A program made the position numbers and the translations under genes. The notes below the pieces were generated by a model. The model saw only the letters and a program-made list of their open reading frames with translations. It was not told where the DNA came from and did no database searches. 64,000 bases of DNA from Actinomycetota bacterium (GTDB lineage Bacteria; Actinomycetota; Acidimicrobiia; Acidimicrobiales; AC-14): the NCBI GenBank assembly GCA_040754375.1, contig JBFMCT010000016.1, positions 1 to 64,000 on the forward strand, written 5' to 3'. Of the stretch, positions 560 through 7,860 are shown piece after piece; position 1 is the first letter of the stretch; each line of letters begins with the position of its first letter.

Positions 560-3049
<2,490 letters not shown>

Positions 3050-3080
3050 CCGGCGTGCCCGGTCCGCCGAGCCGCCGGCG

Positions 3081-3129
3081 AACCGGTGTGTGCGAAACGG
3101 GCCGTTGCTGGCACGTTAGGACACCGGTT
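3081..3129. terminator. possible convergent terminator between clpB and the next gene
   Basis: AACCGGTGT at 3081-3089 pairs perfectly with ACACCGGTT at 3121-3129 around a 31-base loop. It lies between two convergent genes, just after clpB and touching the last codon of the leftward gene. There is no T run. The long loop makes this a modest call. Confidence 0.35.
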
Positions 3130-3653
3130 CAGTGTGAGGTGTACCGGCTCACCCGGGCCAGGGTGGCCTCGACGAACGCGGGGTGCACGTTGGTGAGCGT
3201 GACCCAGCGGCGGGAGGCGTCGAGGTCCAGGCGGGGGTCGTCGAAGCGCCGGCCGATCTCGATGGCGGCCGCTATGGCGAGGGCGGCCAACCCGGTGGCC
3301 AGCCAGCCGGTCCCCTGCCCGAGGGGGACGAAACCGAAGCTGGCCACCAGGGCGGCTACCCCGATGACCCCGACCGTCAGCGACGCGCCCCGCAGCCGGC
3401 GGTCGAGCCGCCAGGCCTGAGGGGCGTAGGGCAGGCGGACGGTGAGCGTTTCCGTGCGGGAGAACAGGGCGAAGCCCACGAGCACGACCCAGCCGACCGG
3501 GCCGAGGAAGACGAGCAGCAGCATGGCCGGGCTGATGCCGCCCATCTGGCGCCGGAAGATCACGATCTGGTCGGTGGGCTGGCCGGACCGGGCGCAGACC
3601 CTCGGGAAGTCGCCTCTCACCGCGTCATCGACGAAAACCGTCACGGCCGCCAT
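3129..3653 (-). CDS. small integral membrane protein, unknown function
   Basis: A 174-residue protein starting at the ATG at 3653 (MAAVTVFVDDAV). The frame is open further upstream, but that part is repeat-like, low-complexity sequence and probably not translated. The N-terminal 40 residues contain CARSG, reminiscent of a zinc-ribbon remnant. Two hydrophobic segments follow (about 45-65 and 90-135, the second possibly two helices), then a charged C-terminal region with R/D pairs. It resembles the many actinobacterial membrane proteins with a short cytosolic head that have no assigned role. It is convergent with clpB. Confidence 0.6.
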   Translation of the reverse strand: MAAVTVFVDDAVRGDFPRVCARSGQPTDQIVIFRRQMGGISPAMLLLVFLGPVGWVVLVGFALFSRTETLTVRLPYAPQAWRLDRRLRGASLTVGVIGVAALVASFGFVPLGQGTGWLATGLAALAIAAAIEIGRRFDDPRLDLDASRRWVTLTNVHPAFVEATLARVSRYTSH

Positions 3654-3670
3654 GAGACCAAGGTACCGGA

Positions 3671-3746
3671 AGGCGGGGCCGAGCGGCGGGGACGTCACCC
3701 GAGGGGCTGTCCTGGCCTTGAGCTCGGGCCCCTGCCTTCCGTGCGG
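3671..3746. repeat. hairpin-forming intergenic repeat, copy 1
   Basis: An imperfect direct repeat shared with 3862-3944. Both copies run AGGCGGGG(G)CCGAGC, then GCGGGGACG, then TGGCCTT(G)AGCTCGG and end CCTGCGG or CGTGCGG. Within this copy GGGGCCGAGC can pair with GCTCGGGCCCC about 40 bases downstream. The region 3654-4011 has no convincing gene. Confidence 0.6.
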
Positions 3747-3861
3747 CCACGGGGCCGCGTTGAAGATCATCGACGGGAGGCGGGCCGGACTTGAGGGCGA
3801 CTTTCGCTCGGGCGCGGCCCTGCGGCGGGGGGACACCGAGGGCCGCCGGGGAGAAAGTGGG

Positions 3862-3944
3862 AGGCGGGGGCCGAGCAGCGGGGACGGTCGCCCGGCGGAA
3901 AGCGCCGTCCCTGGCCTTAGCTCGGCCCCCCGCTCTCCCTGCGG
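3862..3944. repeat. hairpin-forming intergenic repeat, copy 2
   Basis: Second, diverged copy of the repeat at 3671-3746. It keeps the outer arms GGGGGCCGAGC and GCTCGGCCCCC and has an extra inner complementary pair (GGACGG with CCGTCC). Between the copies another short stem (CGGCCCT with AGGGCCG, about 3818-3844) is present. The arrangement resembles a REP-type cluster. Confidence 0.6.
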
Positions 3945-4011
3945 CGGGCGGGAGCCGCATACCTATCTATCGGCCGCACCACGCGCCGACTTGAGGGTTT
4001 AGAGTCAGAAA

Positions 4012-4320
4012 ATGACGGACATCATCACCGGCCTGACCGATGACGACATCGAGGCCGTCGGGGGGCCGTCCCCGACGCTCTCGGCTGACCCCGACGCCAC
4101 CGACAGCGACGCCGACGGCACCGACAGCGACGCCGACGGCACCGACGCAGGCACGACCGACGCGACGGACACCACCGACGCGACCGACACCACCGACGCG
4201 GCTGACACCGCTGACTCGGACGACCGCGACAGTGACTCCGACGGCACCGACTCGGACTCGGACGACAGCGACAGCGACTCCGACGGCACCGACGCCGACT
4301 CGGACGGCACCGACAGCTGA
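4012..4320 (+). CDS. Asp/Ser/Thr-rich repeat peptide with GG-type leader (candidate modified-peptide precursor)
   Basis: A 102-residue peptide. The first 18 residues (MTDIITGLTDDDIEAVGG) resemble the LTxxELxxVxGG end of double-glycine peptide leaders. The rest is almost only Asp, Thr, Ser, Gly and Ala in short repeats such as DSDADGT, TDATDT and DSDSDGT, with one Arg, no Lys and no Cys. At the DNA level a 21-base unit is repeated in tandem from about 4098. The JmjC gene follows after 29 bp on the same strand, suggesting the peptide is its substrate. Alternatives are a calcium-binding or spacer protein, or a drifting repeat ORF. The pairing with an Asp/Asn/His-type hydroxylase is an inference from context. 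There is no strong Shine-Dalgarno. Confidence 0.6.
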   Translation: MTDIITGLTDDDIEAVGGPSPTLSADPDATDSDADGTDSDADGTDAGTTDATDTTDATDTTDAADTADSDDRDSDSDGTDSDSDDSDSDSDGTDADSDGTDS

Positions 4321-4349
4321 CAGGGCGATGGCCGGCGCTGAGCCGGTGC

Positions 4350-5525
4350 GTGGGCGACACCCAGGCGTTCCTCGACCACCACTGGGCCCAGTCGCCGCTG
4401 CATGTCGAGGGCGCTGACCAGGCGGCGTTCGCCGACCTGTTGTCCCTCGACGACGTCGACCGGCTGGTGTCGTCGTCCTTTGCCCGGTCCCCGACCTTCC
4501 GGCTGGTCCGCGACGGCAAGCCGGTCGACCCGGCGCGCTACTCCCGCTCGGCCCGGGTGGGCGGCCGGGACGTGCCGGGCGTGGGCGACCCCCGCCTCGT
4601 GCTCCAGGAGTTCGCGGCCGGGGCCACCATCGTCCTCCAGGGGCTCCAGCGGTCCTGGCCCCCGCTGGCCAGCTTCTGCCGCTCCCTCGAGCACGAGCTG
4701 ACCTTCCCCGTCCAGGTCAACGCCTACGTCACCCCTGCGGGGTCGCGGGGCCTGGATGTGCACTACGACACCCACGACGTGTTCGTCCTGCAACTGGCGG
4801 GGACCAAGTCGTGGTCCGTCCACCCGCCGGTGTGGCCCGACCCGCTGCCCAGCCAACCCTGGTCCACGCGCCGCCAGGCCGCGGGCCCGGCCATCGCCGC
4901 CCCCCACGTGGCCGCCGGGGACTGCCTCTACGTGCCGCGCGGCTTCCTGCACTCGGCCACCGCCCAGGAGGGCGTGTCGGCCCACCTCACGGTGGGGGTG
5001 CACGCCCAGACGTGGCACGACGTCGTCCACGCCGCCCTGGCGGCCACGGCCGACGAACCCGAACTGCGGCGGTCGCTGCCGCCGGGCTGGGCCCACGACG
5101 AGCGGGCGCTGGCCGCCGGGGCCCGCGAGGCCCTGGACGCCGTGGCCAAGAGCCTCGCTTCCTTCGACACCGACGCGGTGGCCGCCCGCACGGTCCAGCG
5201 CTTCTGGGCGGGGCGCCCACCGGTGCTCACCGGCCAGCTCGCCCAGGTCCTCGCCCTCGACGGCCTCGACGACACCACCCGCCTGCGCCCGCGCCCGACC
5301 GCCGTCTGCCACCTCTCGACCGGCCCGGAGAAGGTCGAGATGAGGGTCGGGCAACGGACGCTGCGCATGCCCGCCGCCCTGTCCCCGGTGCTGGCCCGGG
5401 TGACCGCGGGGGACACGTTCGCCCTCGGCGACCTGGCTGACATGGTGGACGAAGCCAGCCGCCGCGTGCTGGTCCGCCGCCTCGTGCTCGAAGGGGTACT
5501 GGAGATCGTCCCCGGCGGTGGCTGA
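4350..5525 (+). CDS. JmjC/cupin-4 type Fe(II)/2-oxoglutarate oxygenase
   Basis: A 391-residue member of the bacterial JmjC-like cupin family (ROXA/NO66 relatives), whose known members hydroxylate protein side chains. The double-stranded beta-helix carries the metal motif HYD (H138, D140) in DVHYDTHDVF, a 2-oxoglutarate-contacting Lys in GTKSW (K153) and the distal His in PRGFLHSA (H201). The C-terminal 170 residues are helical, as in the ribosomal oxygenases. The GTG at 4350 fits the usual N-terminus (FLDHHWAQSPLHV). The gene lies 29 bp after the Asp-rich peptide gene and its stop overlaps the next gene by 8 bp, indicating one transcript. Most likely substrate: the neighbouring peptide or a ribosomal protein; the sequence cannot decide. 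Confidence 0.82.
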   Translation: MGDTQAFLDHHWAQSPLHVEGADQAAFADLLSLDDVDRLVSSSFARSPTFRLVRDGKPVDPARYSRSARVGGRDVPGVGDPRLVLQEFAAGATIVLQGLQRSWPPLASFCRSLEHELTFPVQVNAYVTPAGSRGLDVHYDTHDVFVLQLAGTKSWSVHPPVWPDPLPSQPWSTRRQAAGPAIAAPHVAAGDCLYVPRGFLHSATAQEGVSAHLTVGVHAQTWHDVVHAALAATADEPELRRSLPPGWAHDERALAAGAREALDAVAKSLASFDTDAVAARTVQRFWAGRPPVLTGQLAQVLALDGLDDTTRLRPRPTAVCHLSTGPEKVEMRVGQRTLRMPAALSPVLARVTAGDTFALGDLADMVDEASRRVLVRRLVLEGVLEIVPGGG

Positions 5526-6444
5526 CCCCTGCGCCGACACCTCGGCGGCCCTGGACGAGCCGGTGGCGGGGACGGCTTCGCTGGTCCGAGGCTGGCTGCT
5601 GGTCGAACAGCCCGGAGCCTGGGGCCCAGACGCCCTGTTCGAGAGCCGGTTCCCCCGGAGGCTGGCCCGCGCCCTGGTGCCCGCGGCCCGCGCCCACGGG
5701 GCCCGCATCGTCCTGCTCCGCCGTACCGACCGCCACCTGGAGGAGGGACGGCACGCCTTCGCCTGCCACTCAGGGCGCGCCCGCCCGTGGACCGAGCACC
5801 GCGTGCTCGACCATCCCCGGGACTTGGCGGGCGTCGACCTGGCCGCCTTCACCCGCCCCGAGCCCGCGGGCTTCGGCCGGCCCTGGCCACGGCCCCTCTA
5901 TCTGGTGTGCACCAACGGCCGCCACGACCCCTGCTGTGCGCGCCTGGGCCGCCCGGTGGCCCGTTCCCTCTCGGCCGCCGGGCGCCCGGGGCAGGTCTGG
6001 GAGTGCTCCCACATCGGCGGCGACCGCTTCGCGGCCAACCTCATCTGCCTGCCCCACGGCCTCTACTTCGGGAGGCTGGGCCCCGAGGAGGCGGCCGCCG
6101 CCGTGGCCGCCTACGAGGCCGGGCGCATCGACCTGGACCACTACCGGGGCCGGGCCGGCGACCCGTTCGCCGTGCAGGCGGCCGAGGCGTTCCTGCGCCG
6201 GGAGACGGGCGAAATGGGTGTCGAAGCCGTGGCCCTCCAGGGGTGGCACCGGGAGGGGGGCACCGGCGAAGTCCACGCCCGGTTCACCGTGGGCGGCGGG
6301 CCCGAGGAGGTGGAGGTTCGCGTGGCCGTCGACGCCGGTGCGCCCCGGCTGCTCACGTGCACGGCCGGAGCCCAAGGCCGTCCCCCCATCTACCGGCTGG
6401 TGGACGTAATTCCCCGTCCCCCGGTCCCGCCGGAGCTACACTGA
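5518..6444 (+). CDS. sucrase/ferredoxin-like (Suc_Fer) family protein
   Basis: A 308-residue protein of the sucrase-ferredoxin-like family, thioredoxin-fold proteins predicted to bind [2Fe-2S]. The diagnostic segments are CTNGRHDPCC (C131, C139, C140) and CSHIGGDRFAAN (C163), followed by LICLPHG (C177). The GTG start overlaps the stop of the JmjC gene, so the two are probably translationally coupled. A redox or iron-sulfur role supplying electrons to, or protecting, the Fe(II) oxygenase is plausible but inferred; the family has no firmly known reaction. It ends 36 bp before purA. Confidence 0.8.
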   Translation: MADPCADTSAALDEPVAGTASLVRGWLLVEQPGAWGPDALFESRFPRRLARALVPAARAHGARIVLLRRTDRHLEEGRHAFACHSGRARPWTEHRVLDHPRDLAGVDLAAFTRPEPAGFGRPWPRPLYLVCTNGRHDPCCARLGRPVARSLSAAGRPGQVWECSHIGGDRFAANLICLPHGLYFGRLGPEEAAAAVAAYEAGRIDLDHYRGRAGDPFAVQAAEAFLRRETGEMGVEAVALQGWHREGGTGEVHARFTVGGGPEEVEVRVAVDAGAPRLLTCTAGAQGRPPIYRLVDVIPRPPVPPELH

Positions 6445-6480
6445 CCGGACCGCAGCAGTGCACGTCTGGAGGAGTCGCGC

Positions 6481-7860
6481 GTGCCCGGAACAGTGGTAGT
6501 GGGCACCCAATGGGGCGACGAGGGCAAGGGCAAGGTCACTGACCTACTAGCCAAAGAGATGCAGATGGTCGTCCGCTACCAGGGCGGCCACAATGCCGGT
6601 CACACCATCGTCGTGGGCGAGGAGCGCTTCGCCCTCCAGCTTGTGCCCAGCGGCATCCTCTACCCGTGGGTGACGGCCGTGATCGGCAACGGGGTCGTCG
6701 TCGAGCCCGGGGTCCTTCTCGAAGAGCTCGACATGCTCGCCTCCCGGGGTGTCGACACCAGCCGGTTGCGGGTGAGCGGCAACGCCCACCTGATCATGCC
6801 CTACCACCTCGAGCTCGACCGCCTCACCGAGCGTCACCTGGGCAAGAACAAGCTGGGCACGACCAAGCGGGGCATCGGCCCGGCCTACGCCGACAAGGCG
6901 GCCCGGGTCGGGCTGCGGGTACAGGACCTGCTCGACCCCAAGATCTTCCGCGAGAAGCTCGAGGTGGTCCTCAAAGAGAAGAACCTCGTCTTGGCCAAGG
7001 TCTACAACCGCCTGGCCCTGTCGGCCGACGAGATCGCCGACCGCTACCTGGGCGAGCTGGCCCCCCGGCTGGCGCCCATGATCGACGACACCGTGGGCCT
7101 CGTCCACGACGCCCTCGACGCCGGGGCCAACGTGCTCTTCGAGGGGGCTCAGGCCACCTTCTTGGACCTCGACCACGGCACCTATCCATTTGTCACGTCG
7201 TCCAACCCGGTGGCCGGGGGGGCGTGCATCGGGGCGGGCGTGGGCCCGGGCGCCATCGACCGGGTGATCGGCATCGCCAAGGCTTACGTAACCCGGGTCG
7301 GGTCGGGACCGTTCCCCACCGAGCTCGACGGCGAGCTGGCCGACACGTTCGTCGACCGGGGACGCGAGTTCGGCACGGTCACCGGGCGCCAGCGCCGTCC
7401 CGGGTGGTTCGACGCGGTGATGCTTCGCCAGGCGGCCCGGCTCAACTCGCTGACCGAGATCTCGCTGACCAAGCTCGACGTGCTCGACTCCTTCGACACC
7501 GTGCGGGTGTGCGTCGGCTACGAGGCCGACGGCCAGCGCTTCGACCACATGCCCTACCACCAGTCAGTCCTGCACAAGGTCAAGCCCATCTACGAGGAAC
7601 TGCCGGGGTGGAACGTCGACCTCACGGCTTTCACCGACTGGGACCAGCTCCCGGCCCCGGCCCAGGACTACGTCTACTTCCTGGCCCGCCAGGTGGGCGT
7701 GCCCATCACGATGGTGGGTGTCGGGCCCGAGCGCGACCAGTTCATCCGCACGCCCATGGTCCCGCTCAGCCACGACGGCCACGGCCACGGCCACGGCGAC
7801 TTCGACGACGACGAGGGGGAGGACGGCTGGGGCGTGGGCCCCGGCGTCCTGGTGCTCTGA
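6481..7860 (+). CDS. purA: adenylosuccinate synthetase
   Basis: Joins IMP and aspartate with GTP to give adenylosuccinate, first step from IMP to AMP. The P-loop WGDEGKGK with catalytic Asp is at residues 11-18, GGHNAGHT follows near 36-43, and the [14 protein letters not shown] and GTGxTGRxRRPGWFD-type segments are present. The GTG has a good GGAGGAG nine bases upstream. At 459 aa it is about 30 residues longer than usual: after [11 protein letters not shown] there is a His/Gly/Asp-rich tail ([14 protein letters not shown]). Its last base is the first base of purD (ATGA-type overlap). It heads the purine cluster. Confidence 0.95.

Follow-up and report, generated by a model that had tools for sequence, protein, structure and literature searches.

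Does a short open reading frame (ORF) rich in aspartate (Asp) belong functionally with the two genes for predicted iron proteins that follow it, and what might be done to its product? The question is raised by a locus in a 64,000-nucleotide stretch of DNA from an Actinomycetota bacterium of the order Acidimicrobiales (contig JBFMCT010000016.1, positions 1 to 64,000; the window). An earlier note, made from the letters alone, had proposed that the peptide, a JmjC-type oxygenase and a Suc_Fer protein form a new modified-peptide system. The three genes are present as it claimed, and Pfam confirms the latter two:

4012..4320, + strand: Asp-rich repeat precursor-like peptide of 102 residues; leader MTDIITGLTDDDIEAV, then DSDADGT, TDATDT and DSDSDGT repeats
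4012..4065, + strand: leader region of the peptide, motif [LIV][ST][DE]x[DE][IM]x[ST], here LTDDDIEA with the last position relaxed
4066..4317, + strand: variable repeat tail of Asp, Ser, Thr, Ala and Gly, the candidate core
4317..5525, + strand: JmjC_2 (PF08007) Fe(II)/2-oxoglutarate oxygenase; 4317 is a possible start, the listed GTG frame is 4350-5525; Pfam E 1.4e-24
5518..6444, + strand: Suc_Fer (PF06999) thioredoxin-like [2Fe-2S] ferredoxin-type protein; Pfam E 1.5e-17; CX8C ... HX3D

Peptide and JmjC genes are genuinely paired, and widely so; chance does not account for the trio. We consider it probable that these genes form a dedicated peptide-modification system, a candidate class akin to ribosomally synthesized and post-translationally modified peptides (RiPPs), in which the JmjC protein acts on the repeats, most likely by beta-hydroxylation of Asp.

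Conservation of the gene set

Within the order, a search of 198 genomes found relatives of the JmjC protein in 23. A profile search of 396 Actinomycetota genomes (cut-off E <= 1e-30) places the subfamily in 58 of them, about one in seven, and its presence varies even inside the window's own family. We took as family loci the 72 whose JmjC protein scores above 285 bits against the family profile, and their flanks were read on both strands. Five of these (L037, L045, L091, L100 and L118) reach the end of a contig before a whole upstream ORF, with Asp-rich remnants still visible in two. An Asp-rich repeat ORF adjoins the JmjC gene in 66 of the 67 readable loci, spread over more than 20 Actinomycetota families; the ORF of the sole exception, L102, is acidic but free of repeats. 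These counts combine an automatic screen with by-eye reading of translated flanks, because divergent-strand and borderline cases escaped the screen. In L046, L047 and L050, all of subfamily B, the peptide and JmjC genes are divergent and lie on opposite strands. A Suc_Fer gene follows directly downstream in 55 of the 72 loci. The earlier note had set as its test that the trio be conserved even though the repeats vary, and this is strongly borne out. Homologues that always occur without such a peptide, its refuting outcome, were not seen; peptide and JmjC are paired almost without exception.

The association is also specific. No such peptide lies beside JmjC proteins scoring below the family cut-off or beside the remote homologues. 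Mapped on the JmjC tree, presence or absence of the peptide requires 7 changes, compared with 20.6 for shuffled labels; three loci labelled "absent" stop at a contig end. In the reverse direction, a profile of the 22-mer repeat peptide gave strong matches (E < 1e-10) in 8 of 392 genomes, all of them adjoining this JmjC gene. As is usual for RiPPs, a putative modifying enzyme is therefore encoded together with its precursor; the activity of the oxygenase on the peptide is predicted. Plasmid records contained no in-family trio, just remote Streptomyces and cyanobacterial cupins, and a scan of genome contigs yielded one distant named JmjC relative, without a peptide. One genome (G225) harbors a second member of the JmjC family at L118, where a non-repeat acidic remnant lies upstream at the contig end.

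The peptides

Besides its 36 Asp, the window peptide contains one Arg and neither Lys nor Cys, whose absence the earlier note had stated for the repeat part. It is the sole ORF with at least 15% Asp among 342 ORFs of 40-250 residues in the window, and 20 block-shuffled windows gave zero ORFs with at least 20% Asp and few basic residues. Serine in its tail is written with four different codons (TCG, AGC, TCC and AGT).

Of 62 automatically extracted peptides, about 55 have the leader motif close to the N-terminus, some positions being relaxed. The leader is the part that aligns between divergent peptides, while the repeat type of the tails changes: by lineage, they switch between DGTDGDATDA-like units, GEGPADGGSNPEGHDGGADGTA, PTEDDENLDAPGEHSKDTGDEA, SADGTDQGVEGGTYGPRDA and GDAAGDGAGDAG. 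Pooled tails consist of 29% Asp, 19% Ala, 19% Gly, 10% Thr and 7% Ser; Cys, Lys and aromatic residues are rare. The peptides thus have the conserved leader and variable core expected of RiPP precursors.

Close pairs of peptide genes differ chiefly at third codon positions, and changes of length or repeat number stay in frame. The L096/L097 pair has 0, 2 and 28 differing sites by codon position, with a nonsynonymous rate (dN) of 0.017 and a synonymous rate (dS) of 0.62. Values for L098/L099 are 0.015 and 0.88, and for L063/L067 0.17 and 1.99. The signal is weaker in the window's own family (L033/L034, dN 0.28 and dS 0.38). Over all close pairs dN/dS ranges from about 0.02 to 0.7, with dN far under dS in most. 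Third-position changes dominate and lengths change in frame, so the peptide genes are under purifying selection at the protein level and presumably translated. Stop codons in relatives, the other outcome named as refuting, were not encountered; the frame is open and its dN/dS low.

The double-glycine (GG) leader is the claim that did not survive. GG occurs within the first 26 residues in 26 of the 62 peptides, at differing places, which speaks against a cleavage site kept across the family. Nor does a C39 peptidase or ABC exporter recur among 20 loci read over a wide range, and a GG leader served by such an exporter is rejected on both counts.

The oxygenase

The protein combines the PF08007 match with the HxD...H Fe(II) triad that defines JmjC_2 2-oxoglutarate (2OG) oxygenases. 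The iron ligands H138, D140 and H201 were correctly assigned by the earlier note and do not vary among 17 aligned relatives; in alignment A1 (17 proteins), H149, D151, H212 and K164 occur without exception, and HxD...H is invariant across 69 family members. The AlphaFold model (predicted local distance difference test, pLDDT, 88) finds NO66 as its best solved-fold match (Foldseek E 3.9e-25, template modeling score 0.68), followed by MINA53 and YcfD. With these proteins it shares fold, domain order, iron ligands and an invariant core Lys. It differs from them in sequence (about 22% identity at best), in family-specific Arg residues and in being encoded with an acidic repeat peptide, whereas their targets are basic ribosomal proteins. 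The residues in question are Arg57, Arg112, Arg326 and Arg388 (P0002 numbering), at least 94% conserved in the 69 family members and at most 25% in 20 remote relatives. They would fit the binding of an acidic partner.

Elements 331-391 of the model run strand-strand-strand-helix-helix-helix. We liken them to RiPP recognition elements (RREs) since this order matches the definition of RREs in the relevant passage of Bregman et al. (PMC12710340); the likeness is one of element order. The same 2025 passage describes RRE-like domains fused to PF08007 JmjC proteins, with bacterial homologues in RiPP-like contexts. That context is the trait common to both cases; the Asp-repeat peptide and Suc_Fer are not named in that passage, which is the nearest prior notice in a literature where we found no description of this gene set. 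None of the three proteins (peptide, oxygenase and Suc_Fer) is covered by an NCBIfam model. A defence system or phage module was rejected, as PADLOC gave no matches and the PHROG matches of the oxygenase are to uncharacterised families only.

The Suc_Fer protein

The Suc_Fer model (pLDDT 93) is closest in fold to the Aquifex thioredoxin-like ferredoxin and Azotobacter FeSI, and these matches are modest (E about 0.01-0.03). Together with the PF06999 match they place the protein among thioredoxin-like ferredoxins, with the reservation that the fold match is modest. With such [2Fe-2S] ferredoxins and with Aim32/Apd1, it shares the CX8C motif and the fold. Aim32 holds its cluster via CX8C and HX3H (PMC8482512). 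In Suc_Fer proteins linked to the peptide and JmjC genes, CX8C and the first His of HX3H persist, but Asp takes the place of the second (HX3D) in 53 of 53 copies readable by motif search, so they lack the bis-His arrangement of the Aim32/Apd1 type. An added His (xHDxCC) is present in 53 of 55 linked copies, where the unlinked paralogues that were read have Arg, Lys or Gln. HX3H is kept in 13 of 15 unlinked copies, as in Aim32; HX3D is an imperfect marker, present also in two unlinked copies, L161 and L164. One linked protein (L140, genome G309) has HX3C instead, which would give a set of three Cys and one His.

The linked copies form a distinct subfamily. They occupy one side of the Suc_Fer tree, on a branch that carries no support value, and their distances track the JmjC tree (r = 0.84). 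Own side of the tree, parallel distances and altered motif together suggest that the linked Suc_Fer has specialised and been inherited along with the other two genes, perhaps with one cluster ligand moved to a new place. Suc_Fer is probably accessory, because subfamily B, whose peptides carry the repeat PTEDDENLDAPGEHSKDTGDEA, consists of peptide and JmjC without an adjacent Suc_Fer gene.

A possible model and its alternatives

The interpretation given in the earlier note thus holds in part: a conserved, modified-peptide-like trio remains, the GG leader does not, and Suc_Fer is not universal. We propose the following mechanism. The acidic leader (LTDxDIxT) would be recognised by the JmjC protein, plausibly via its C-terminal winged-helix-like domain. 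The enzyme would then oxidise the repeat tail, most likely by hydroxylating many Asp residues at C-beta. NO66, MINA53 and YcfD, the nearest characterised relatives, all hydroxylate the side-chain beta-carbon of a protein, and for this reason we favour the same position here. Where present, Suc_Fer might act as redox partner, for example by reducing over-oxidised iron back to Fe(II), or it might be a second modifying enzyme. Poly-beta-hydroxyaspartate would presumably bind iron or calcium, and the end product could be an iron- or metal-binding poly-hydroxyaspartyl peptide.

There are precedents for parts of this scheme. CinX of cinnamycin converts a precursor Asp to 3-hydroxyaspartate. PesHI carries out the same conversion (PMC13060819), but on one Asp at a fixed position and with another enzyme fold, while here dozens of Asp in repeats would meet a JmjC enzyme. 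BipG is a JmjC ornithine hydroxylase in the biosynthesis of the RiPP biphenomycin (PMC12707348), and because of this precedent we regard a JmjC protein acting on a ribosomal precursor as plausible. Such action, predicted in our case, is what the two systems would share. The biphenomycin cluster differs in that the ornithine sits in a short core and the partners are genes for a multinuclear non-heme iron-dependent oxidase (MNIO), a radical SAM enzyme, an arginase-type enzyme and a protease; here there are no such partners and the peptide is an Asp repeat.

Several facts weigh against the proposed system. Modification and product are predicted from the genes, and a plain metal-binding peptide could be rich in Asp too. 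2OG oxygenases normally need no ferredoxin, and Suc_Fer is not adjacent in 17 of the 72 loci (every locus of subfamily B among them, and several that stop at a contig end). The correlation of the Suc_Fer and JmjC trees is partly due to shared species history. Among the 20 wide loci no fourth gene (protease, transporter, immunity or regulator) recurs, although genes for leader removal and export may lie at another place in the genome, and L107, a lower-scoring JmjC inside the clade, has neither peptide nor Suc_Fer.

Some of these facts would suit an unmodified acidic peptide that binds metal or calcium, or carries iron, as donor or buffer for JmjC and Suc_Fer. Its disordered-looking, Asp-rich sequence without catalytic features, its two predicted iron-protein neighbours and the lack of export or protease genes in the wide loci all agree with this. 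A conserved leader with switching tails is, however, typical of a precursor recognised by an enzyme; low dN/dS retains specific repeat units, beyond mere acidity, and the oxygenase has its family-specific Arg residues. We therefore hold the unmodified binder to be rather improbable. More improbable still is that the JmjC protein is a ribosomal-protein hydroxylase of the NO66/YcfD type with the peptide as its regulator or substrate mimic, an idea to which the similarity in fold to NO66, MINA53 and YcfD lends weight. Ribosomal substrates are basic and nearly invariant, yet the companion here is an acidic, lineage-variable repeat, and at E <= 1e-30 the subfamily is absent from about 85% of the Actinomycetota genomes sampled, with patchy presence in the window's family. 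Asp-rich repeats can also stem from runs of GAC where GC content is high, which would make the ORF spurious and its place beside the other genes an accident; conserved pairing, in-frame repeat changes, synonymous bias and uniqueness among the 342 window ORFs leave this practically no room, and we reject it.

A variant that overlaps with our preferred reading concerns the chemistry: the oxygenase might oxidise Thr, Ser or Gly, form oxidative crosslinks or cleave the backbone. RiPP macrocyclisation by 2OG enzymes has been reported (a 2025 title cited in PMC12710340), and tail Gly and Ala together exceed Asp, which is scarcer in the 22-mer types. Since Asp is nevertheless the commonest tail residue and the characterised relatives hydroxylate beta-carbons, we consider such chemistry unlikely, if a serious competitor to Asp hydroxylation. 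In its boldest form, Asp hydroxylation would define a new, widespread Actinomycetota RiPP class: poly-aspartyl repeat peptides, perhaps ribosomal iron-binding peptides, beta-hydroxylated at many sites by a JmjC enzyme that bears an RRE-like domain and is partnered by a Suc_Fer protein whose [2Fe-2S] site is unusual (Cys2-His-Asp or relocated-His). This full combination we put forward only tentatively.

If the peptide is modified, it would represent a new class of RiPPs, from a phylum of central importance for natural products, and the enzymes a JmjC oxygenase family with known peptide substrates. A system of two or three genes is simple and easily rebuilt in E. coli, and the linked Suc_Fer, through its altered cluster motif, offers a way to test what a poorly understood ferredoxin family does.

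Gene boundaries in the window

The Suc_Fer gene start overlaps the JmjC stop by 8 nucleotides, an overlap already reported in the earlier note, and purA follows the Suc_Fer gene at 6481. JmjC homologues keep an ALxRCVGD N-terminus, the first part of which precedes the listed GTG 4350 in the window; the real start therefore very probably lies upstream of this codon. As the upstream frame has no ATG, GTG or TTG codon, CTG 4317, which overlaps the TGA stop codon of the peptide, may be the start. Rfam gave no match at 3000-7000 and thus no RNA element. A 15-pair inverted repeat in the leader DNA (4018-4050), flagged as terminator-like on the minus strand, is probably a by-product of leader codons.

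Remote relatives

A Streptomyces clavuligerus plasmid (NZ_CP065235.1, L125:3269-4664) encodes a 48-residue Asp/Pro-repeat peptide, WP_009999493.1 (MDDKKTSLEPDEIEVIPPVSTPDFVIADNDPSDPPIAIADPDPFDPVI), directly upstream of a remote JmjC protein, WP_009999494.1. The peptide carries an acidic stretch, LEPDEIEVI, similar to the leader, and an S9 peptidase and an ABC transporter are encoded nearby. In view of this pair, peptide-JmjC pairs may reach beyond the present JmjC family. On a Dolichospermum plasmid (NZ_CP043057.1, L129:1424-3909), a remote JmjC protein of the same fold is found near a 71-residue precursor-like peptide of the GG type, with the sequence MSDEDIKSI and a repeated RSSAQL tail. A relative of this JmjC protein in Pseudanabaena (L130) is encoded near a LanM gene.
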